From positions 1 through 64,000 of the forward strand of contig CAMKMX010000010.1 of NCBI GenBank assembly GCA_946414025.1: 64,000 nucleotides of DNA, given 5' to 3'. Each line of letters opens with the position of its first letter. Positions within the stretch are counted from its first letter, which is position 1. Below the pieces are notes generated by a model that worked only from the letters and a program-made list of their open reading frames with translations, was not told the DNA's origin and made no database searches. The position numbers were made by a program, and so were the translations under genes. This DNA comes from an uncultured Fibrobacter sp. (GTDB lineage: Bacteria; Fibrobacterota; Fibrobacteria; Fibrobacterales; Fibrobacteraceae). Below are positions 4,978-59,635 of this stretch, piece after piece.

Positions 4978-5035
4978 TAAATAGGGGATAGGATTTAGGG
5001 ATTAGGATCTAGGGGTTAGGATTTAGGGGTTTGAG
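4978..5035. repeat. Heptanucleotide tandem repeat (locus B)
   Basis: About eight consecutive 7-bp units of the form TAGGRNT (for example TAGGATT, TAGGGGT) lie in the divergent gap between folD and the ABC transporter operon. Unlike loci A, C, D and F, no complementary arm is seen. The rest of the gap (5036-5203) is AT-rich and should hold the transporter promoter. Confidence 0.75.
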
Positions 5036-5203: not shown

Positions 5204-7036
5204 ATGATTGCTATGAAATCTACTGCCAAGATGCTTTTGGCTCTCTCGGCAAGTGGTGTTGTCTTTTCGGGTTGTGGAAGTGACCAGGTCGAAGGTGCAC
5301 TTCCTCGCCAGGAGACGCTCTACCTGTCCGGTCAGCAATGGGGCGCTCCCGCGACGTTCAACCCCCTTGCCGAAAGCTGGATGGCTGCCTGGCCCGTGGG
5401 TGGTCGCTTTAACCTGGTTTACGAACCGCTTATCACCTATAATACCTTGAACGGCCAGATCGAGGACCTTCTGGGACACCTGGACGAAGACCTCTCCAAC
5501 AACGACAGCATCGTGGTTACCCTGAACCCCGCTGCCAAGTGGAGCGACGGGGTGCAGGTGAACTCCAACGACGTGAAGTTCATTTTCACCAAGGGTTCTA
5601 TCAACACCTCCGAACAGATTTCCGACATTCATGTGGACACCCTTTACGCCGAACCGGCATCCGAGGACTCCACCGCCGAACGCAAGATGATTGGCGAACG
5701 TCTGGCCTTTATCGTGAACAAGGCCCAGAGGAACAACCCGCTGTCTGTGCGCGACCTGCTTCAGGCCATCCGTATCGCTCCGGCCCACGTGTTCGAGCCG
5801 CTGATTGCCGAAAAGGGTCTCGACGAAGTCAAGAAACTCACCATGGACAAGAACCCGGTGGTTTCTGGCCCCTACAATATCATGTCCGCCGACCCCAACA
5901 AGATTATCTTGCAGCGTCGTGACGACTACTGGGGCAATGCCGCCCTCCACGACGGCAAGCTCCCCGCTCCTAAGTACGTGGTTCACCCCATTTACAAGAG
6001 CAACGATGCTAACACCATCGCTCTCACCACGGGTAACCTCGATGCTTCTATGAGCTTCGTGACCCGCATTTGGCGCAAGCGCGGCGTGCATACTTGGTTC
6101 AACGAACCGCCTTACTTTGCTCCTGGCGCTATGCCCATGCTCATGATCAACACCATGAAGGAACCGCTCAACGACAAGCGTTTCCGTAGGGCTCTGGCAA
6201 CGGCTATCGACTACACGGCTATCCGCCAGTTCGCTGTTTCCAATTACACCTCTACCCTGAAGCCGGGCCTGATTATGCCTACCGGCCTCGAGGGCAAGTA
6301 CATCAATGAAGAAGACACCCAGAAGTACGGCGTGAACCTTGCCATTACCGACGAGAACGAACGCCTGAGAACAGTGAAGCAGATGCTTTCTGAAGCGGGC
6401 TTCAAGTCCGTATGGAAGAGCGATGGAACTCTTGACCACATGGAAAATGCCAAGGGTGAAAAGCTCCCCACGCTGTTCATCACGAGCCCTGCCGGTTGGA
6501 CCGACTGGGAAGCCATGGTGACCATCGCCGTAGAAGGCATGCGTAAGGCCGGTATCGACGTGCGTGAAGGCTTTGTAGATGGCGGTCAGTACTGGCCTGC
6601 CAAGGGTACGGGTAACTTTGACCTGCTCATGGACAAGCCCTCTGCTGACGTGTCTCCGTCTCTGCCGTGGAGCCGTTTCAACGAAGTCATGTCCAGCCGC
6701 GACTGGCAGCCTCTTGGCGCCTGGGCCGGTACCAACATCGGCCGTTATAACCAGCCGGGCACTCCTGAATTCCGCCCCGAAGTGGACCAGCTGATGTCTG
6801 CAATCCCGCTGATGACCGACCCCGAAGAAATCGCGAAGGCTTACCGCGAACTCAACAAGATTTTCATGGAAGACCAGCCCTCCATTCCGCTGGTTTACCT
6901 GCCCGAACAGTTCTACGAATTCAGCGACCGCGTATGGACTAACTGGCCCACTGCCGAAAACCCCTACGCTCCGCCGCAGCTCCCGTGGATTGCCTCCGGC
7001 ACCAAGATTCTTTGGAACCTCAAGCTTGCTAAATAA
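5204..7036 (+). CDS. ABC transporter substrate-binding lipoprotein, family 5 (Dpp/Opp type)
   Basis: A 610-residue extracytoplasmic solute-binding protein. The signal peptide ends in a lipobox (VVFSGC, Cys at about 24), so it should be lipid-anchored. The family-5 pattern is visible: NLVYEPLITYNT, then LNPAAKWSDGVQVNSNDVKF, RRALATAIDY and a C-terminal PLVYLPEQFYEFSDRV. GAGG (5195-5198) sits 5 bp before ATG 5204; ATG 5213 is possible but too far from it. First gene of a five-gene operon. Family members bind oligopeptides, nickel or, in some bacteria, oligosaccharides. In a cellulose degrader a cello-oligosaccharide ligand is possible but unproven. Confidence 0.9.
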   Translation: MIAMKSTAKMLLALSASGVVFSGCGSDQVEGALPRQETLYLSGQQWGAPATFNPLAESWMAAWPVGGRFNLVYEPLITYNTLNGQIEDLLGHLDEDLSNNDSIVVTLNPAAKWSDGVQVNSNDVKFIFTKGSINTSEQISDIHVDTLYAEPASEDSTAERKMIGERLAFIVNKAQRNNPLSVRDLLQAIRIAPAHVFEPLIAEKGLDEVKKLTMDKNPVVSGPYNIMSADPNKIILQRRDDYWGNAALHDGKLPAPKYVVHPIYKSNDANTIALTTGNLDASMSFVTRIWRKRGVHTWFNEPPYFAPGAMPMLMINTMKEPLNDKRFRRALATAIDYTAIRQFAVSNYTSTLKPGLIMPTGLEGKYINEEDTQKYGVNLAITDENERLRTVKQMLSEAGFKSVWKSDGTLDHMENAKGEKLPTLFITSPAGWTDWEAMVTIAVEGMRKAGIDVREGFVDGGQYWPAKGTGNFDLLMDKPSADVSPSLPWSRFNEVMSSRDWQPLGAWAGTNIGRYNQPGTPEFRPEVDQLMSAIPLMTDPEEIAKAYRELNKIFMEDQPSIPLVYLPEQFYEFSDRVWTNWPTAENPYAPPQLPWIASGTKILWNLKLAK

Positions 7037-7047
7037 AAGGACGACAA

Positions 7048-8433
7048 ATGCTTAAACAATATCCAATGTTGCGCTATGTCCTGCAGAAGGGATTCTGGTA
7101 TCTCTTGACGTTTGTTGTCGCCGTGGCGATTAACTTTACGTTGCCCCGTATGGGTGAGAACAACCCTGTGGACATCATTATGGGTAAGGCCGCCCAGGGC
7201 CTTTCGCCCGAAGAAGCCAAGCTCAAGAAAGAAGGCCTGCTCAAGGCTTTCGGTATGGCCGAACTGGACGACCAGGGTAACGTGATCTACGACCCCGAGG
7301 TGGATGCCAACGGCCAGATGAAGACCATCAAGGTGGCAAAGCTGGACGAAAACGGCGCCCCTGTGCTGAAGACCGTCAAGGAAGTGAACGAAGACGGCAC
7401 GCCCAAGATGCTGGAGCGCCAGGTGGTGGACGCCGAGGGTAACCCGGTATTCGAAGAAAAGCCGGTGCTCGACGAAAAGGGTAAGCCGGTCATGGAAAAG
7501 GACCCGAAGACCAAGAAGAAGGTGGCCAAGGTGGAACAGGTTCCGGTGATGGAACAGTACCAGGCCGAACGCCAGGACACCGTCATGGTGGACGAAGTGG
7601 TCAAGAAGGCCGACCCCCGCCTTGCTTCTGGATTCTCCCAGTTCCTGGTCTATATCAAGAACGTGTTCAAGGGTGACCTGGGTATCTCTTACAGCCAGTA
7701 CCCGAAGCCGGTGGTGGACATCATCAAGGAATCCGTTCCTTGGACGCTCCTTATCCAGGCTCCCACCATTATCCTCGGCTGGATTATCGGTAACCTGCTG
7801 GGTGCCTTCGCTGCCTACAAGCGCGGCATCTTCGACAAGGTGTTCTTCCCCTGCGCCATGTTCTTAAACGGCATTCCCTTCTTCGTGTTCGGTATGCTTC
7901 TGGTGGCGCTCTTCTCCATCACTCTCGGCTGGTTCCCTGCCATGGGCGCCTACAGCCCCGACATTACGGAGCTTAGCTTCTCCTGGGGTTGCATCAAGAG
8001 TGTGGGCTGGTACTACATTCTGCCCTTCTTCTCGGTGTTCCCGATCCTGCTTTCTGGTCAGGCAACGGGTATGCGTTCCATGTCCATCTACGAACTGGGT
8101 ACCGACTATATGAAGTACGCCAAGTGGCTTGGACTTCGCGAAGGCAAGATTATCAGCTACGTGTTCCGTAACGCCATGCTCCCGCAGCTCACCGGCCTTG
8201 CCCAGAGCCTCGGTACCATGGTGGGCGGCGCCCTCATTACCGAAATGATCTTCTCTTACCCGGGCCTCGGTATGGCGATGCTTACCGCTATCCAGCAGAA
8301 CGACTACGCGACCATTCAGGGTTGTACCTTGATGATTTCGACCTGCGTGCTCGTGGCTAACTTTGCCGTTGACGTTTTGATTGCGGTGTTTGACCCCCGT
8401 GTCAAGGCCGGTCTCCAGATGGGAGGTAAGTAA
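7048..8433 (+). CDS. ABC transporter permease (DppB type) with a 14-residue repeat insertion
   Basis: A 461-residue inner-membrane permease; usual DppB/OppB length is about 310-340. TM1 is at about 14-32. GDLGISYSQ (about 209-217) and the permease core with the EAA-like loop (GTDYMKYAKWLGLREGKI) are normal. Between TM1 and GDLG lies an extra acidic block of about 110 residues (71-185). Its glycines at 89, 103, 117, 131 and 145 are exactly 14 apart in repeats of the form DExGxPV. This segment should face outside the cytoplasm. It pairs with the DppC-type permease that follows. Confidence 0.9.
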   Translation: MLKQYPMLRYVLQKGFWYLLTFVVAVAINFTLPRMGENNPVDIIMGKAAQGLSPEEAKLKKEGLLKAFGMAELDDQGNVIYDPEVDANGQMKTIKVAKLDENGAPVLKTVKEVNEDGTPKMLERQVVDAEGNPVFEEKPVLDEKGKPVMEKDPKTKKKVAKVEQVPVMEQYQAERQDTVMVDEVVKKADPRLASGFSQFLVYIKNVFKGDLGISYSQYPKPVVDIIKESVPWTLLIQAPTIILGWIIGNLLGAFAAYKRGIFDKVFFPCAMFLNGIPFFVFGMLLVALFSITLGWFPAMGAYSPDITELSFSWGCIKSVGWYYILPFFSVFPILLSGQATGMRSMSIYELGTDYMKYAKWLGLREGKIISYVFRNAMLPQLTGLAQSLGTMVGGALITEMIFSYPGLGMAMLTAIQQNDYATIQGCTLMISTCVLVANFAVDVLIAVFDPRVKAGLQMGGK

Positions 8434-8435
8434 TC

Positions 8436-9281
8436 ATGGGAAAACTATTAAGAAACCTTCTCAAGTCCCCGATGTTTGTCATCGGTATCTCGATCTTTAT
8501 TATTACCCTGTTGATTGCGCTGTTTGGCCCCATGTTCTACCATGTGGACATCAACGCTCGTGACATCGTGGCTGGGCCCTATGCGGGTTCTAGCGGCGAA
8601 CACCTGCTGGGTACCGACCACCTGGGCCGTGACTACGTGTCTCTCTTGATCGAAGGCCTCCGCAGCTCCCTCTACGTGGGTCTTGTGGCGGGCATCATCG
8701 CCACCACCATCGGTGTGCTTATCGGCCTCTTTGGCGGTTTCCGCGGCGGATGGATTGACGAAGTGTTGAACATGCTCACCAACATCTTCATCGTGATTCC
8801 GCAGTTCGTGATTCTCGTGCTTATCAGCTCTGCTGTTAAGGACGGTCGTTCTTTGACGCTGATTGGTCTTATCATCGGCCTTACGGCTTGGAGCTGGTCT
8901 GCCCGTGCGGTGCGTGCCCAGGCTTCTTCGCTGCGCAGCCGTGACCATATCTCCCTTGCAAAGATTAACGGAGCGTCTACGCTCACGATCGTTATCAAGC
9001 ACGTGCTTCCGTACCTGCTTTCTTATGTGTTCATGGTGTTCATCATGCAGGTGTCTTCCGGTATCCTTTCCGAAGCCTCCATCTCCATGATCGGCCTTGG
9101 TCCTCTGGATTCCACTTCTCTGGGTATCATCTTGAACCAGGCGAAGGACAACGGAGCCCTTTCCGACGGCATCTGGATCGCCTTCTTGCCCGCCACCATC
9201 ATCATTACCCTGACGGTGTTTGCGCTGTTCCTGATCAATACTTCCATGGAAGGCGTCTTTAACCCGCGTCTTCGCAAGTAG
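8436..9281 (+). CDS. ABC transporter permease (DppC type)
   Basis: A 281-residue inner-membrane permease of normal length. A TM segment at about 14-36 is followed by GTDHLGRDYVSLLIEGLRSSL, a hallmark of DppC/OppC, and by further TM segments. The loop WSWSARAVRAQASSLRSRDH is the ATPase-coupling EAA region. It starts 2 bp after the DppB-type gene ends, so the two are almost certainly co-translated and form the transport channel together. Confidence 0.93.
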   Translation: MGKLLRNLLKSPMFVIGISIFIITLLIALFGPMFYHVDINARDIVAGPYAGSSGEHLLGTDHLGRDYVSLLIEGLRSSLYVGLVAGIIATTIGVLIGLFGGFRGGWIDEVLNMLTNIFIVIPQFVILVLISSAVKDGRSLTLIGLIIGLTAWSWSARAVRAQASSLRSRDHISLAKINGASTLTIVIKHVLPYLLSYVFMVFIMQVSSGILSEASISMIGLGPLDSTSLGIILNQAKDNGALSDGIWIAFLPATIIITLTVFALFLINTSMEGVFNPRLRK

Positions 9282-9293
9282 GAGGTTTAGAAA

Positions 9294-10295
9294 ATGTCTG
9301 AAAATGTATTTGAAGTCGAAAACCTGAGCCTCTACTACCTGGGCCGCTTTGGCGACAAGACCCACGCGGTGACCAATGTGAGCTTCTCCATGAAGCAGGG
9401 TGAAATCCTGGGTATCGCCGGTGAATCCGGTTGCGGCAAGTCCACCTTGGTGTCTGGCCTTATGGGCATGTGCATCCCGCCTCTCTATCCCGAAGGCGAC
9501 GGTGACGTGCGCGTAAAGAGCGGCGACAAAATGGAATCTTTGATGAACCGCTCTATCGAGGATGTTCGCAAGAACGTGCTCGCCCAGAAGGTTTCCATGA
9601 TTCCTCAGGGCGCCTTTAACGCCCTGAACCCGGTCCGCAAAATCAAGGATATCGCCGCCGACGTGATTGGCGCCCACCAGCAGCCCGGCAAGCACCTGGA
9701 CAAGAAGGAAGTCTATGACCGCCTTTGCGAGCGCTTCGACCTGTTTGGCATGGACACCAAGCGCGTGCTGGATTCTTACCCCATTCAGCTTACCGCCGGT
9801 GAACGCCAGCGTTCCGTGATCGGTATCTCTACGCTTTTGAACCCCCAGATGGTGATTGCCGACGAACCCACTTCCGCCCTGGACGTTTCTACCCAGAAAG
9901 AAGTGATCAAGTTGATCTTTGACCTTTTGGACAAGGGCATCTTCAGCACCATGATTTTCATTACCCACGAACTTCCGCTGCTGTACCACGTGGCCGACAA
10001 TATCGCCATCATGTACGCCGGCGAATTCGTGGAAAAGGGCACTGCAGAACAGGTGGTGAAGGATCCCCGTCACCCCTACACCCAGGCTCTTATGGGTGCC
10101 ATGCTCAGTACCGAGGCCAGCCAGCGTCACCGCCACCCGGTGGCAATCGAAGGCGCACCTCCGAGCCTGCGTAACAAGATTACGGGTTGCCGCTTTGCCG
10201 ACCGTTGCAAAAAGGCATGCCCCGACTGCAAGAAGAATACCCAGAACCTCCGCGTTGTCGGTGGTCGTGATGTGAGGTGCGATTATGCTGAGTGA
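9294..10295 (+). CDS. ABC transporter ATP-binding protein (DppD type)
   Basis: A 333-residue cytoplasmic ATPase. Walker A is GESGCGKST (about 43-51). The signature is degenerate, LTAGERQR in place of LSGGQ-R, and Walker B is VIADEPTSALDV. The C-terminus has the oligopeptide-transporter extension with four cysteines (CRFADRCKKACPDC), which in this family can bind an iron-sulfur cluster. An AGGAGG-like site precedes the start. The gene overlaps the next ATPase by 11 bp. Confidence 0.93.
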   Translation: MSENVFEVENLSLYYLGRFGDKTHAVTNVSFSMKQGEILGIAGESGCGKSTLVSGLMGMCIPPLYPEGDGDVRVKSGDKMESLMNRSIEDVRKNVLAQKVSMIPQGAFNALNPVRKIKDIAADVIGAHQQPGKHLDKKEVYDRLCERFDLFGMDTKRVLDSYPIQLTAGERQRSVIGISTLLNPQMVIADEPTSALDVSTQKEVIKLIFDLLDKGIFSTMIFITHELPLLYHVADNIAIMYAGEFVEKGTAEQVVKDPRHPYTQALMGAMLSTEASQRHRHPVAIEGAPPSLRNKITGCRFADRCKKACPDCKKNTQNLRVVGGRDVRCDYAE

Positions 10296-11094
10296 TAAGC
10301 CTGTTGTATTTTCTGCCAAGCGCATTAGCAAGGACTTTGGCGCGGGCAAGACCCTGAAGACCGCCGTGAAGGATGTTTCCTTCGATATCTATGACGAAGA
10401 ATTCATCTCCATCGTGGGCGGCTCCGGTTGCGGCAAATCCGTGCTGGCAAAAATTATGCTCGGCCTCTACGAACCCACCCGCGGCCAGTTCCTCTACAGG
10501 GATCACAAGATCAAGAACCTGAGGGACCACTGGAACGAGGTTCAGTTCGTATTCCAGGACCCGTTCGGATGCTTCAACCAGTTTTTTACTATCCGTAGCC
10601 AGCTGGAAGACGCCCTGAACGTGCTCAAGAACAAGCCCTCCAAGGAAGAAGTTCGCCGCCGTGTGGACGAAGGCCTGATGGCCGTGAACGTGAAGCCCTC
10701 CGATATCGAAGGCAAGTACCCCTTCGAGCTTTCGGGTGGTCAGATGCAGCGTATGCTTTTGGCCCGTATCTTCGCGCTCCGCCCGAAGGTGCTGATTGCC
10801 GATGAAGCTACTTCCATGGTGGACGCCTGCGTGCGCGCCAACATCCTCGATTACCTCCGCAAGTTGAAAGACGAGCTGAAGATGACCGTGGTGTTCGTGA
10901 CCCACGATATCGGCCTTGCCAACTACGTGTCTGACCGAATCTTCATCATGCACGACGGAAAGATTGTGAACCAGGGAACGCCTGCAGAAGTGCTGGACAA
11001 CACTACGGAACCGCATACGCTCCGCCTGCTGGACGATATCCCCGAAGTCCACAAGACCGAATGGATTAAGAACAGCCATCGCTCTAAGAAATGA
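10285..11094 (+). CDS. ABC transporter ATP-binding protein (DppF type)
   Basis: A 269-residue partner ATPase. It has Walker A GGSGCGKS, Q-loop FVFQDPFG, signature LSGGQMQR, Walker B VLIADEATSMVDA (Ala replaces Pro after the catalytic Glu) and the H-loop VTHD. It lacks the Cys-rich tail of the preceding ATPase. Its ATG lies inside the preceding gene, so translation is probably coupled. It is the last gene of the transporter operon; a repeat and a terminator follow. Confidence 0.93.
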   Translation: MLSDKPVVFSAKRISKDFGAGKTLKTAVKDVSFDIYDEEFISIVGGSGCGKSVLAKIMLGLYEPTRGQFLYRDHKIKNLRDHWNEVQFVFQDPFGCFNQFFTIRSQLEDALNVLKNKPSKEEVRRRVDEGLMAVNVKPSDIEGKYPFELSGGQMQRMLLARIFALRPKVLIADEATSMVDACVRANILDYLRKLKDELKMTVVFVTHDIGLANYVSDRIFIMHDGKIVNQGTPAEVLDNTTEPHTLRLLDDIPEVHKTEWIKNSHRSKK

Positions 11095-49314: not shown

Positions 49315-49472
49315 CAGTAATCAGTCATCAGTTATGAGTTTTCAGTTATAGAAGAAGTACCTCGCACCTCGAGCCTCGAACCTCACCACTCACAACTCAC
49401 CACTCACAACTCATAACTCATAACTCATAACTCACAACTCATAACTCACAACTCATAACTCATAACTAATTT
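49315..49472. repeat. Heptanucleotide repeat, inverted arms (locus D, longest)
   Basis: Left arm: five 7-bp units of CAGTTAT type (49315-49349). Right arm: sixteen units in perfect register from 49361, starting CTCGCAC and becoming CTCATAA or CTCACAA. The right unit is nearly the reverse complement of the left. The array fills the divergent gap between the small membrane protein and hemW. Confidence 0.85.
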
Positions 49473-53597: not shown

Positions 53598-56500
53598 ATG
53601 AAAAAGATGGCAAGAAACTTGACAATGGCGATTCTTTCGGCAGTGACGCTTGCACTTGCCGGAGTCGCAACTCCGTCGGGAGCTCCGGAAAACCCGGCGA
53701 CAGGCATCTGGATTCAGCAGATTGGTGAAATCGTGGAACAGCCTTCCACGAACGCTACTCTTTATTATACCAAATATATTGGCGATGATCGCGTCAAGAG
53801 TATCGACTACTTCTATGATGGACTGGGATACCTGAGACTGTTGAACAAGAAGGATCTATGCCATTCGAACGGAGCCGATGGCATTATGCATCATCCTGAT
53901 GGAGATTTGATTGTAGCTGGCCAGGGAGCCAGGCTCCATAAGGTAAAAAAGAATAGCGGAAGCACCAATGCCAACACCTGTGTGGCAAAGACCTCCCCTG
54001 CGAACTACAAGACGGAAAATTCGGGAACGGGAAGTACACAGGGCTACTGGCACGTGATGGTGGACCCGAACCACAAGTTTGTTTGGGCCGACGGTATGCC
54101 GGGGCCCCTGGTTCGCTATGCTTTGGATAACAAGAATGACAATGGTTTGTCCAATGTGGGTTATCAGGTGGAACTGAGGACGCCCGCCAAGGAACCCTAC
54201 AAGAGCCTGCCGGACCGCAACAAGAATATTAAGCAGGTTACTACCGTGATATGGGACGGCGAAGGCAATGCCTTTTATACCTATTCAAACTATGCAGGCG
54301 GCGGATGTGAAACGGACCTGAATGGTGTTGCTTGTAGCGAATCCCTGAAAAAACAGTGGAGGGCGGGCTCCCACTTCGGTTATTTTACGGATACTACATG
54401 GAAAAAAATCAACAGTGCCGCAGATTCGGCGAAATACTTGGGGCACGTAGGGGATTCCGTGGTCATTGGCCTTGGGAAAATAACCCTTATTGATTCTCTG
54501 GAAGGAGCCCATGGCGGAACGTACGACCCCTATTCAAACACCATCTTTATCTTTGGCGGTTCTAAAATTGTGCAGATTGAACCCTACAGGGAAGGAGGCC
54601 AGATGAAGGCTAGGGTGCTTGCCGAAATTAACCTGCGCACCTTCTTTTTCCCGGAAGACACGACCCACCTTTCTGGTCCCCGTACTCCCTCCTGCAGGCA
54701 GAAAGCCGACCCTACGACAGGTGAATGGGGCAATTCCGGTCAATCCGGCTATTGCGATGGTGGTACAAACAGAAATGGGGCCACTCCCACGGTGGGTTGG
54801 CGCCTGGACCAGGGAACGGTCGATGGTCACGGCCACTTGTTTGTGGCTAGTAACACTGGACATGTGATTTTCATAGACTATGCGGCAAATCCGCAACGTC
54901 TTATCGATAACAATGTGCTTGCCCATATGCAGTGGATAGATAACTTCCTAGACGATTTGGCTCCTTTGGACAAAATTAAAATCGCCCGTTCTAGCGCAAG
55001 TACCATTGGCGATGTTTCTTCAAGTAGTTGGGAAAGACTCAGTTCACAAGAAGAATGGAATGAATCTTCTAGCAGTAAACAGTCGTCTAGCAGTCAGGGT
55101 TCTTCTTCTAACAGTGAAGGGTCGTCCGGTAGTGAGGATTCTTCTAGTAGCACGGATTCTTCGGATAGCAACGATTCTTCTTCCGGCAGCGAAGGATCTT
55201 CTGGTAGTGGGGACTCTTCTAGTAGCACGGGTTCTTCGGATAGCAATGATTCTTCTTCCGGCAGCGAAGGATCTTCTGGTAGTGGGGACTCTTCTAGTAG
55301 CACAGGTTCTTCGGATAGTAATGGTTCTTCTTCCAACAGCGGCGGCTCCTCTGGCAGCACGGGCTCTTCTGGCAGCAACGGCTCCAGCAGCAGCCAGGGC
55401 GGTGGTGGAGAACTGTTCAGCAGTTCTTCCAGCAGTGACGAAGGCAGTGGCGGAGGAATTCTGTTTAGCAGCAGTACTGGAAACTACAGCCCCAATGGTG
55501 GCGGTGAGGATTTCGGGTATAGCTCAGCTGGCGGTGGATATGTCAACCCGTCTTGGGACGATTATGACAAGGGCGATTCTGTAGTCCAGAATGCGGGTGT
55601 TCTGGTGCCTGCCGACGACAAGAAGCCCGGTGACCCCGGTACGGTGACTATCGGTGAGAATGTGTACTATGTGGACAACAACCCCACGGATATCTCCTTG
55701 GACTTCCGTCAGAACGCCAATATCGATTCGGCCAAGGTCGGAGATGTGGTGGCTATAACACTGAGTGCGGACAAGGTGAAGGAATACTTCGGTGACCATG
55801 TGGATTCCCTTACGTTCACCACTCCGTCGGGACTTATCCTGATAGACCCCAACAACCCGGCTCCGGGCGATTCCATCAAGGTCAATGCCGACGGCAGCGT
55901 CACGATTTATGTGACCGCCTATGACCCCGTACGCAATGGAGAAATCTACATCACCAACGAAGTAGGTCAGCTTGTAGTGATAGACAATATCAACTTCTTT
56001 GCGGTGGTTCCCGAAGGCAAGATTGCTCTAATCAAGGACTCCGGCGAGCTAGACGGCCAGCTGGATTACGTGGAAATCCTGTTACAGGATACGTTGTCCA
56101 AATTTGTAGATGTGGTGTCCGTTTCCCTGGTGGTCAACGGTGTGACCATGAATCCGGCGACGGTACCGACCCTCAACGGAGAACGGAACAGGATTATCCT
56201 GAACGACGTTTCCGACCTGGTGTTCCCCGATGAAATCGACCAGAGCTCCTATGCCCAGATTGTCTATAAGGACAAGCAGAACGGGGCCACCTACGTGCGT
56301 CAGGTACCCCTGGTGGAACTGGGAACCAATATCATCAAGGCGGCACACGCCATTAGGGATACTACCAAGGGTGGCCTGGACTCTTTGTTTGTGGAGTTCA
56401 ATGTTGATATTATTCCCATTGATTTGAGCTATCCAGAGATGCTGATTGCCATGAAGCAAAAGGGCAAGGAAGTGTTCTTTGGACTTGGCCAGGTTTCCAA

Positions 56501-58417: not shown

Positions 58418-59635
58418 ATGAACCTGATTCGCTATTCTTTTGGTCTTGCTGTAGGCGCCGTTTTGGTCGCATGCGGTGGCAATAACCCGCAGCCGGTGGT
58501 GGAACCCGCCGAGCCTGTAGCCGCTCCTGCGCCTCAGGTTTCCCTGGACAGCGCCGTGGACCGCTACAGCTATGCTTTGGGTATGGACTTGGGGAAGGCT
58601 ATCGCCAATATCAATGTTCCTGTCAAGATGGACGTGCTGATGCTTGCCCTCCAAGACGAAGTGGACCCTGCCCGTAAGGTTCTGCTGTCGGATTCCGCTT
58701 CGGAATCTGCCCTGCAAGATCTGCTGCTCCGCATGCAGAAGCAGAAAGAGGACGACGAGAAGGCTGCCGCCGCCAAGGCTCTGGAAGACCAGGCTGCATT
58801 CCTCGCCAAGAACGTTCTGGATTCTACGGTAAAGGTGACGCCCAAGGGTGTGCAGTACCGTGTGCTCAAGGCCGGTACGGGCATTTCTCCCAAGGTGACG
58901 GACAAGGTCCAGGTGCATTACATCGGGGCTTTGTTAGACGGCACACAGTTTGACAACAGCGTCAAGCGTGGTGAACCTCTGGAGTTCCCCGTAGGCGCGG
59001 TCATCGAAGGTTGGCAGGATTTGCTCCAGGTCATGAAAGAAGGGGACAAGGTGAAGGCCTGGATTCCCAGCGCCCTGGCCTATGGCGAAGCTGGTGTTCC
59101 GCCTACCATTCCGGGCAATGCACTCCTGATTTTTGAAGTGGAACTGTTGAAGGTCTATGCCGAAGTTCCGCCTGTGGATTCTACGGCTGTTCCGGCTGAC
59201 AGCGCCGCAGCGGCTCCTGCTGATTCTGCTGCATCGGCAGCCGCAGCTCCTGCTGTAGCACCAGCAGACACGACGAAGGCTGCGCCTTCTAAGCCTGCCG
59301 CCGCTCCCGCTGCTGCTCCTGCGGACAGCGCCAAGGCAGCCCCCGCCGCAGCTCCTGCTGCTAAGGCCGAAGCCAAGCCTGCTGCCGCCGCTCCCGCTGC
59401 TGCTCCTGCGGACACGACAAAAACTGCCCCCGCTGCAAAACCTGCTGCTGCACCTGCCGATACAGCAAAGGCTGCTCCAGCTAAGCCTGCTGCAGAACCG
59501 GCTAAATCTGTTGCTCCTGCCGCCAAGCCTGCTGCTCCTGCCGCGAAGGCAGCTCCTGCTGCAAAACCGGCCGCCGAGGCAAAACCCGCAGCAGCTCCTG
59601 CAAAGCCTGCCGCCAAACCGGCTGCCAAGCAATAG
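58418..59635 (+). CDS. FKBP-type peptidyl-prolyl isomerase lipoprotein with long Ala/Pro tail
   Basis: 405 residues from the ATG after AAAAGGAG. Lipoprotein signal with lipobox VLVAC. The FKBP N-terminal dimerisation domain (about 45-140) has RYSYALGMDLGKAI and a helical Lys/Glu/Ala stretch. The FKBP domain (about 145-245) has VQVHYIGALLDGTQFDNS, GVIEGWQ-like VIEGWQDLLQVMKEGD and IPSALAYGEAG. The last 155 residues are almost only Ala, Pro, Lys, Asp and Ser (APAAAPADSAKAAPAA). It should be an envelope folding helper, with the tail perhaps reaching across the periplasm or peptidoglycan. Confidence 0.9.
   Translation: MNLIRYSFGLAVGAVLVACGGNNPQPVVEPAEPVAAPAPQVSLDSAVDRYSYALGMDLGKAIANINVPVKMDVLMLALQDEVDPARKVLLSDSASESALQDLLLRMQKQKEDDEKAAAAKALEDQAAFLAKNVLDSTVKVTPKGVQYRVLKAGTGISPKVTDKVQVHYIGALLDGTQFDNSVKRGEPLEFPVGAVIEGWQDLLQVMKEGDKVKAWIPSALAYGEAGVPPTIPGNALLIFEVELLKVYAEVPPVDSTAVPADSAAAAPADSAASAAAAPAVAPADTTKAAPSKPAAAPAAAPADSAKAAPAAAPAAKAEAKPAAAAPAAAPADTTKTAPAAKPAAAPADTAKAAPAKPAAEPAKSVAPAAKPAAPAAKAAPAAKPAAEAKPAAAPAKPAAKPAAKQ

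Follow-up and report, generated by a model that had tools for sequence, protein, structure and literature searches.

The window, by which we mean the whole 64,000-nucleotide stretch of the gut bacterium Fibrobacter analysed here, carries an ABC importer operon in the order SBP-B-C-D-F (5204-11094), in which a solute-binding protein (SBP), a second permease subunit and two ATPases are all present beside a permease with a long periplasmic insert, referred to below as the arm:

5204..7036, plus strand: family-5 solute-binding protein (SBP) gene, first gene of the operon (610 aa; PF00496, 139.9 bits)
7048..8433, plus strand: DppB/OppB-type ABC importer permease carrying the arm (461 aa; PF00528, 127.9 bits, cut-off 26.4)
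8436..9281, plus strand: second permease subunit, DppC/OppC-type (281 aa; PF00528, 83.3 bits; OppC_N, 27.9 bits)
9294..10295, plus strand: ATPase D with an oligo_HPY C-terminus (PF00005, PF08352)
10285..11094, plus strand: ATPase F (269 aa; PF00005, 96.5 bits; PF08352 not among its matches)

The SBP is likely a lipoprotein, with a lipobox-like VFSGC near its N-terminus. The arm-bearing permease passes the PF00528 cut-off and thus belongs to the permeases of binding-protein-dependent importers, and phmmer matches it to E. coli DppB (8z1v_A) at 1.7e-31; it fails the DppB equivalog model NF008161 (121.4 bits vs. a cut-off of 590). A second DppB-like gene of the same genome, a 345-residue frame, matches the Opp4B model end to end (1-319), and the loop used as a query against this genome found itself alone at E ≤ 5. 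The protein is a PF00528 permease from an SBP-dependent importer, and its unusual part is a repeat-built outgrowth with a length rule. As a separate observation, the Pfam scan returned an oligo_HPY match in ATPase D and none in ATPase F; perhaps just one of the two ATPases holds an iron-sulphur cluster like those reported in E. coli DppD and DppF.

The insert lies between the first transmembrane helix and the GDLG motif of the permease. The preliminary description had placed it at 7255-7605, which corresponds to residues 70-186, and had correctly located it ahead of GDLG, which starts at residue 209. We delimited the following parts, all on the basis of sequence and predicted models:

7063..7149, plus strand: TM1, residues 6-34 (helix H6-34 of the full-length model)
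7165..7248, plus strand: putative scoop motif alpha1-loop-alpha2, residues 40-67 (loop-model helices at local 4-12 and 18-31; by order, the E. coli DppB 32-62 region)
7258..7500, plus strand: outgoing half of the arm, residues 71-151 (six D/N-x-x-G units of period 14; repeat score, alignment and model)
7501..7518, plus strand: predicted tip turn of the arm, residues 152-157 (between strands at local 113-115 and 122-124; tip-region charge)
7519..7617, plus strand: predicted return strand of the arm, residues 158-190 (6-residue steps; strands at local 122-124, 126-130, 132-136, 138-142, 144-148 and 150-154)
7630..7668, plus strand: alpha3, residues 195-207, leading to GDLG at 209-212 (sequence and loop model)

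Alignment with E. coli DppB places the insert close to an element of known function. By phmmer, residues 196-453 of the window permease align strongly with E. coli DppB 63-336, and a first block (7-58 on 1-51) scores 3.4 bits only; by these two blocks, the insert falls after residue 51 and before residue 63 of E. coli DppB. The cryo-EM account of DppABCDF (PMC12136057) describes residues 32-62 of that protein as the scoop motif, an alpha1-loop-alpha2 element that occupies the DppA cleft and whose alpha2 contacts the N-lobe of DppA. The window permease shares the family and the order TM1, alpha1-loop-alpha2, alpha3, GDLG, and its predicted model has two short helices between TM1 and alpha3 (40-48 and 54-67). 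It differs from E. coli DppB at the arm site, where the latter has about 11 residues, and in the scoop loop: the charged E41/R42 pair of E. coli was not seen in the window by eye, which reads K47-A48-A49-Q50 there. The arm thus begins after alpha2, at the end of the scoop motif, and finishes where alpha3 starts; residues ~71-190 grow out from the far end of the motif that, in E. coli, comes into contact with the binding protein.

The outgoing half of the arm is a genuine protein-level repeat. Glycines 89, 103, 117, 131 and 145 are spaced exactly 14 apart, as had been noticed earlier, and the mean BLOSUM62 self-similarity of residues 72-149 peaks at lag 14 (1.19; runner-up 0.72 at lag 28), a value that none of 5000 shuffles reached at any lag from 2 to 40. 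The period also survived the alignment of relatives. However, the count of five units that came with it is one short: there are six D/N-x-x-G turns, beginning at residues 74, 86, 100, 114, 128 and 142, the first being DDQG at 74-77 and the one at 114 starting with N. The 14-residue block is moreover a part of the feature alone, since residues ~158-190 seem to be its return strand. The statement that the block adds about 110 acidic residues does not hold, as residues 70-190 contain 12 D, 15 E, 17 K and 2 R (27 D/E vs. 19 K/R, net -8). At the DNA level the units are 33-64% identical to each other, and Tandem Repeats Finder at its default score reported no array at the repeat in the window (in L068 and L070 it found short arrays of other periods only). 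On these two results we rejected a recent microsatellite-type expansion; they point to an old repeat kept at the protein level. Within the unit, compared over the four units of residues 86-141, the glycine (mismatch 0.03) and register 11 (0.00) vary least, and positions 2, 3, 9 and 13 most. We rejected a metal-binding repeat, another early suggestion, as unsupported: no D-x-D-x-D-G pattern was seen, turn positions 2 and 3 are among the most variable (0.36 and 0.43), and about one-fifth of the facing pairs are opposite-charged at the predicted register.

Structure prediction gave a strand pattern with the same period. The AF2 model of residues 37-214 with 38 relatives reached a mean pLDDT of 80.7 (up to 89 in 10-residue blocks; pTM 0.45) and shows a beta-ribbon-like arrangement, with outgoing strands every 14 residues, return strands every 6, six of each, and single bridge residues beside each turn. 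The mean pLDDT of the five loop models ranges from 80.7 down to 63.0, and the full-length model, though poor (mean 60.5, with much of its TM part below 50), repeats the strand pattern. The strand pairing is our inference from the DSSP strand list. As modelled, the arm most likely folds into a long antiparallel beta-ribbon of two strands. Each 14-residue unit of the outgoing side would divide into a strand of 5 residues and a side excursion of 9 that a D-x-x-G-x turn closes; its counterpart on the return side would be one 6-residue step (5 residues paired, 1 opposite the excursion), so that the cost of one added unit would be 14+6=20 residues. Opposite charges would face each other across the ribbon, with an acidic stem and a cationic tip.

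Searches for similar structures and families returned mostly weak matches. Foldseek of the loop model gave no row at E ≤ 0.001, from which neither a new nor a different fold follows; its weak rows include Rhs proteins (E 0.34 and 0.87), and VIA-align of the same model returned one row (Z 2.1). A structure search with the full-length model retrieved E. coli DppB and OppB. By sequence, the best PDB match of the loop has an E value of 0.16, and Pfam scans of three 14-residue arms and two other inserts yielded sub-threshold matches only. Among known repeats, the first units of the arm weakly resemble CshA_repeat (PF19076; E 1.3e-4, 23.0 bits, under its cut-off of 27). Our search of largely open-access literature on such ribbons and repeat inserts, OppB inserts, the scoop motif and Fibrobacter transport found no paper on the insert among the titles listed; two of the Fibrobacter papers refer to other subunits of the probable S85 operon described below.

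The ribbon makes predictions about sequence that were examined in four ways. The first concerns length. For seven architectures with one, two, four, five and, in three cases, six units, assigned by hand after automatic counting failed on many rows, the length of the insert increases with unit number with a slope of 20.02 ± 0.43 (r2 0.998), and that of the remainder beyond the last unit, which the units do not include, with a slope of 6.60 ± 0.41 per unit. Three of these architectures (L119, L074 and L069) are absent from the alignment used for the loop model; one turn of L069 is degenerate, and in L074 and L069 the first unit measures 16 and 15 residues, respectively. Loops that fall off the line or could not be counted were omitted from this law (L073/L099, L084, L086, L097, L078/L079, the Lys-rich variants and the other inserts); by a post hoc reading, L084 and L086 resemble ribbons of one unit in which the two sides have gained similar lengths. 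Insertions are also coupled between the two halves. In 61 of the 64 distinct long loops both sides could be measured (L078 and L079 are among those not measurable): 5 have two extra residues in the outgoing and two in the return half, 56 have neither, and none has one alone. Seven of the 56 uninserted loops have one outgoing residue fewer with an unchanged return half, a difference that alignment A2 places within a turn excursion. The corresponding gaps in A2, at 108|109 and 176|177, face each other in the predicted pairing, although each can be slid by a residue or two.

Covariation and charge bear on the register of the two strands. The two strongest of 2555 outgoing-by-return pairs in 50 rows, 122-171 and 112-173, both lie on the 41 predicted rungs, and none of 24 shifted registers contains either of them. 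However, the mean APC-MI of the predicted register ties with that of register +6 (0.0366 vs. 0.0365), and hydropathy matching across the strands gives r 0.33 at +6 against 0.16 at the predicted register, hence the covariation must not be over-read. As to charge, at the predicted register 21.7% of pairs are opposite and 3.7% like, the top opposite fraction of 17 registers (next 16.0%), and in all 50 rows the residues at 95 and 182 are oppositely charged. The rows are closely related to each other, and many of these sequences also went into the AF2 model, so that the model and the covariation are not independent; these two tests support but do not prove the ribbon. The alignments comprise 47 of 52 distinct relatives (A1) and 38 of 45 (A2); A2 dropped L078, L079, L072 and near-duplicates, and the motif search missed L085 and L158. 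Taken with the predicted beta-ribbon arm, the four tests support the earlier idea that the block may reach out.

Two other views of the insert concern its fold. Were it disordered, or a loose linker rich in charge, with a model that merely reflects the repetitiveness of the sequence, the high K/E content, the poor full-length model and the pTM of the loop model would be readily understood, but the length law, the coupled insertions, the covariation and the charge register would not, and we regard this view as quite improbable. The units might also form a meander or an OspA-like single-layer sheet instead of a two-stranded ribbon with side excursions. Such an arrangement would agree with the hairpin-like D-x-x-G turns and with the bridge residues that the model places beside each turn; it would leave unexplained the six-step return strand, the roughly 6 extra residues per unit and the cross-strand pairs, and is improbable.

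The distribution of the arm was assessed across the phylum. A search started from a short-armed relative finds the permease in 133 of 167 Fibrobacterota genomes (E ≤ 1e-60), and the 57 loci taken from genome contigs all have Fibrobacter or Fibrobacteres-type names. A loop query against plasmids and phages matched Acinetobacter records alone, 1 and 7, respectively. The same insertion in many unrelated DppB proteins, an occurrence raised in the preliminary description, was not found among these 57 loci, the plasmids and the phages. That DppB proteins have no such block was also claimed, which fits E. coli DppB, where about 11 residues join the aligned blocks, but not the relatives: outside the arm-bearing clade, 28 of 38 distinct loops are 23-24-residue versions of the insert, typically V-x-V-D-x-x-G-x-I-x-R-D-x-x-G-K-P-V. 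This short form also occurs in several genera of the window's own family (e.g., L124, L131 and L132), and two deep relatives (L158 and L159) have a plain D-K-P linker. Rows that have at least two clear 14-residue units group in one clade (31 of 70 rows, SH-aLRT 100) on a tree built by a quick method with the insert left out; this tree comprises the 70 rows that remained after thinning and excludes L155.

Arm length differs among relatives, in a series from the short hairpin through 2, 4 and 5 to 6 units. We suggest that, in one clade of the window's family, the arm grew from the short hairpin-like insert common outside that clade; growth as the direction of change is our reading of the sequences. 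Reduction occurs as well. L073, with a spacing of 106, is nested among relatives at 177-190, and is a firm case of an arm cut back with the operon intact, which means that the arm is not indispensable. The tree is compatible with the short state being either lost or old in L086 (82), L084 (86) and the group of F. intestinalis (94). In total, the long and short states require at least 9 changes on the 70-row tree.

Other kinds of insert were observed at the same permease site. Unrelated inserts of ~180 residues occur in L094 (2107-3699), L098 (4882-6531), L154, L156 and L157 (families f7 and f10), and those of L094 and L098 gave no Pfam match over threshold. RDT-rich inserts with ~45-50 extra residues are found in L125, L133 and L135; by eye they are near-even about a central turn and resemble plain ribbon extensions. 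The unlike inserts and the repeated changes in length together mark the junction of the scoop motif and alpha3 as a hot spot for outgrowths.

The arm is under looser constraint than the core of the protein, yet it evolves under purifying selection: dN/dS pooled over 20 distinct sequences of 461 residues is 0.13 in the repeat and 0.15 in the return half, compared with 0.07 from alpha3 to the end and 0.03 in the scoop motif. Its charge layout is conserved, the tip being net positive and the remainder net negative in all 61 long arms with a delimitable tip (of 64). In 12 of these 61 the tip is Lys-rich, with +11 to +14, and in the shorter arms L070 (five units) and L069 (four units) the Lys cluster at the tip is absent by eye.

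The arm prolongs the very motif that, in E. coli Dpp, inserts into the cleft of the binding protein, and we therefore propose that it serves the operon's own SBP. Our first choice is a docking or guiding arm that would lie along the binding protein. The SBP gene adjoins the permease in every locus with a long enough stretch except L164 and the distant paralogue L100. In partial Mantel tests, the loop correlates with the SBP (partial r 0.37, p 0.001, and 0.28, p 0.004, for 41 and 29 operons, respectively); however, the values for the cytosolic ATPase F are higher (0.55 and 0.75, both p 0.001), and those for C (0.18 and 0.00) and D (-0.36 and 0.06) vary, so the mirror-tree signal is not specific to the SBP. 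An analogue of the proposed role is the P2 region of MalF, which likewise adds a large periplasmic part to a single permease subunit and presumably sits in another loop than the window's arm. It belongs to another permease, that of the maltose importer, where it spans residues 91-271 and has one segment that directly contacts the binding protein; it is described as anti-parallel sheets plus a helix, with no 14-residue repeat (PMC3150292). Overall, we assign a probability of roughly 0.5 to the reading that the insert is a structured, expandable arm rather than a disordered linker, and docks the operon's own SBP. The wider notion of a new kind of structural repeat, an asymmetric beta-ribbon whose one strand moves on by 14 residues with a side hairpin for every 6 of its partner, and which forms an adjustable arm holding the SBP or the envelope and tuned in 20-residue steps within one family, is put forward tentatively and with considerable doubt.

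Two further explanations accept a structured insert and dispute its partner. A cationic tip might contact an anionic partner in the envelope, such as peptidoglycan, the inner leaflet of the outer membrane or the lipid head groups of the inner membrane, and thereby anchor or space the transporter. The positive tip in all the measured long arms, strongly so in 12 of them, agrees with this, as does the reach of the arm, because a 33-residue return strand, if straight, would span at most about 110 Å; nevertheless, the arms of L070 and L069 have no Lys cluster by eye and the operon is kept in L070 and L071, which leaves envelope contact unlikely. Alternatively, the scoop/alpha3 junction may be a tolerant site, where the tip of a hairpin drifts in length and is selected only to fold and not to interfere, with no partner at all. 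At least three unlike kinds of insert at this site in the phylum, the frequent switches between long and short states and the loss of the arm from L073 with its operon intact are what such a site would produce. The dN/dS of the arm, the kept charge and the coupled lengths indicate, on the other hand, a maintained structure, although fold-only selection could explain these too, and we consider the tolerant site somewhat unlikely. The scoop element, which in E. coli Dpp meets the binding protein, is here extended in one clade by a modular arm that changes length in near-constant steps, and the series of arm lengths offers a natural set for testing how binding-protein docking is tuned. The 14:6 ribbon, if confirmed, would also represent a repeat fold whose simple length rule can be read from sequence alone.

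The operon most likely corresponds to FSU_1687-FSU_1691 of F. succinogenes S85, which we identified via locus L065. The predicted masses of the L065 proteins (D 36.62, F 30.50 and SBP 67.47 kDa) match those printed for FSU_1688 (36.622), FSU_1687 (30.503) and, within 0.1 kDa, FSU_1691 (67.554) (PMC4619616; PMC6851124), which makes the S85 counterpart very probable; the D mass is common to L065 and L167 alone, and the F mass occurs also in several other loci. FSU_1690, the permease by gene order, is unnamed in the main texts of these two papers. The S85 SBP is reported from all substrates tested, with a speculated import of cellodextrins (PMC4619616), and FSU_1687, for which cellobiose/cellodextrin import is predicted, and FSU_1688 are reported to be 1.32-fold and 1.15-fold up on cellulose, respectively (PMC6851124). 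In view of this cellodextrin link, the substrate of the window's transporter need not be a dipeptide.

Similar 14-residue units occur outside the permease family. Seven Acinetobacter phage proteins (H2-H8), one of them annotated as a tail fibre, are 36-37% identical to the loop over 78 aa, and a similar stretch in an Acinetobacter record can be read as a series of D/N-x-x-G-x-P units with a spacing of 14; the phage proteins differ in that, as far as their sequences can be read, they are not permeases. The 14-residue turn unit may therefore be a recurring beta-turn unit, maybe in unrelated proteins. A reading frame with a similar unit lies in L172 at 401-625 (NZ_CP064203.1, 715988-716212), a record that is listed as an A. 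baumannii plasmid of 3.97 Mb and is perhaps a chromosome.

Several other tandem repeats were noted in the window. Upstream of the SBP gene, at 4982-5031, there are 3.6 copies of the 14-base repeat TAGGGGTTAGGATT, which was also found by eye in L032 and is absent from nine other loci compared. A heptamer array, CTCACAA, with 12.3 copies is located at 49382-49467, and the tandem repeats at 55065-55385 and 59295-59562, with longest periods of 75 and 42, respectively, resemble coding linkers.
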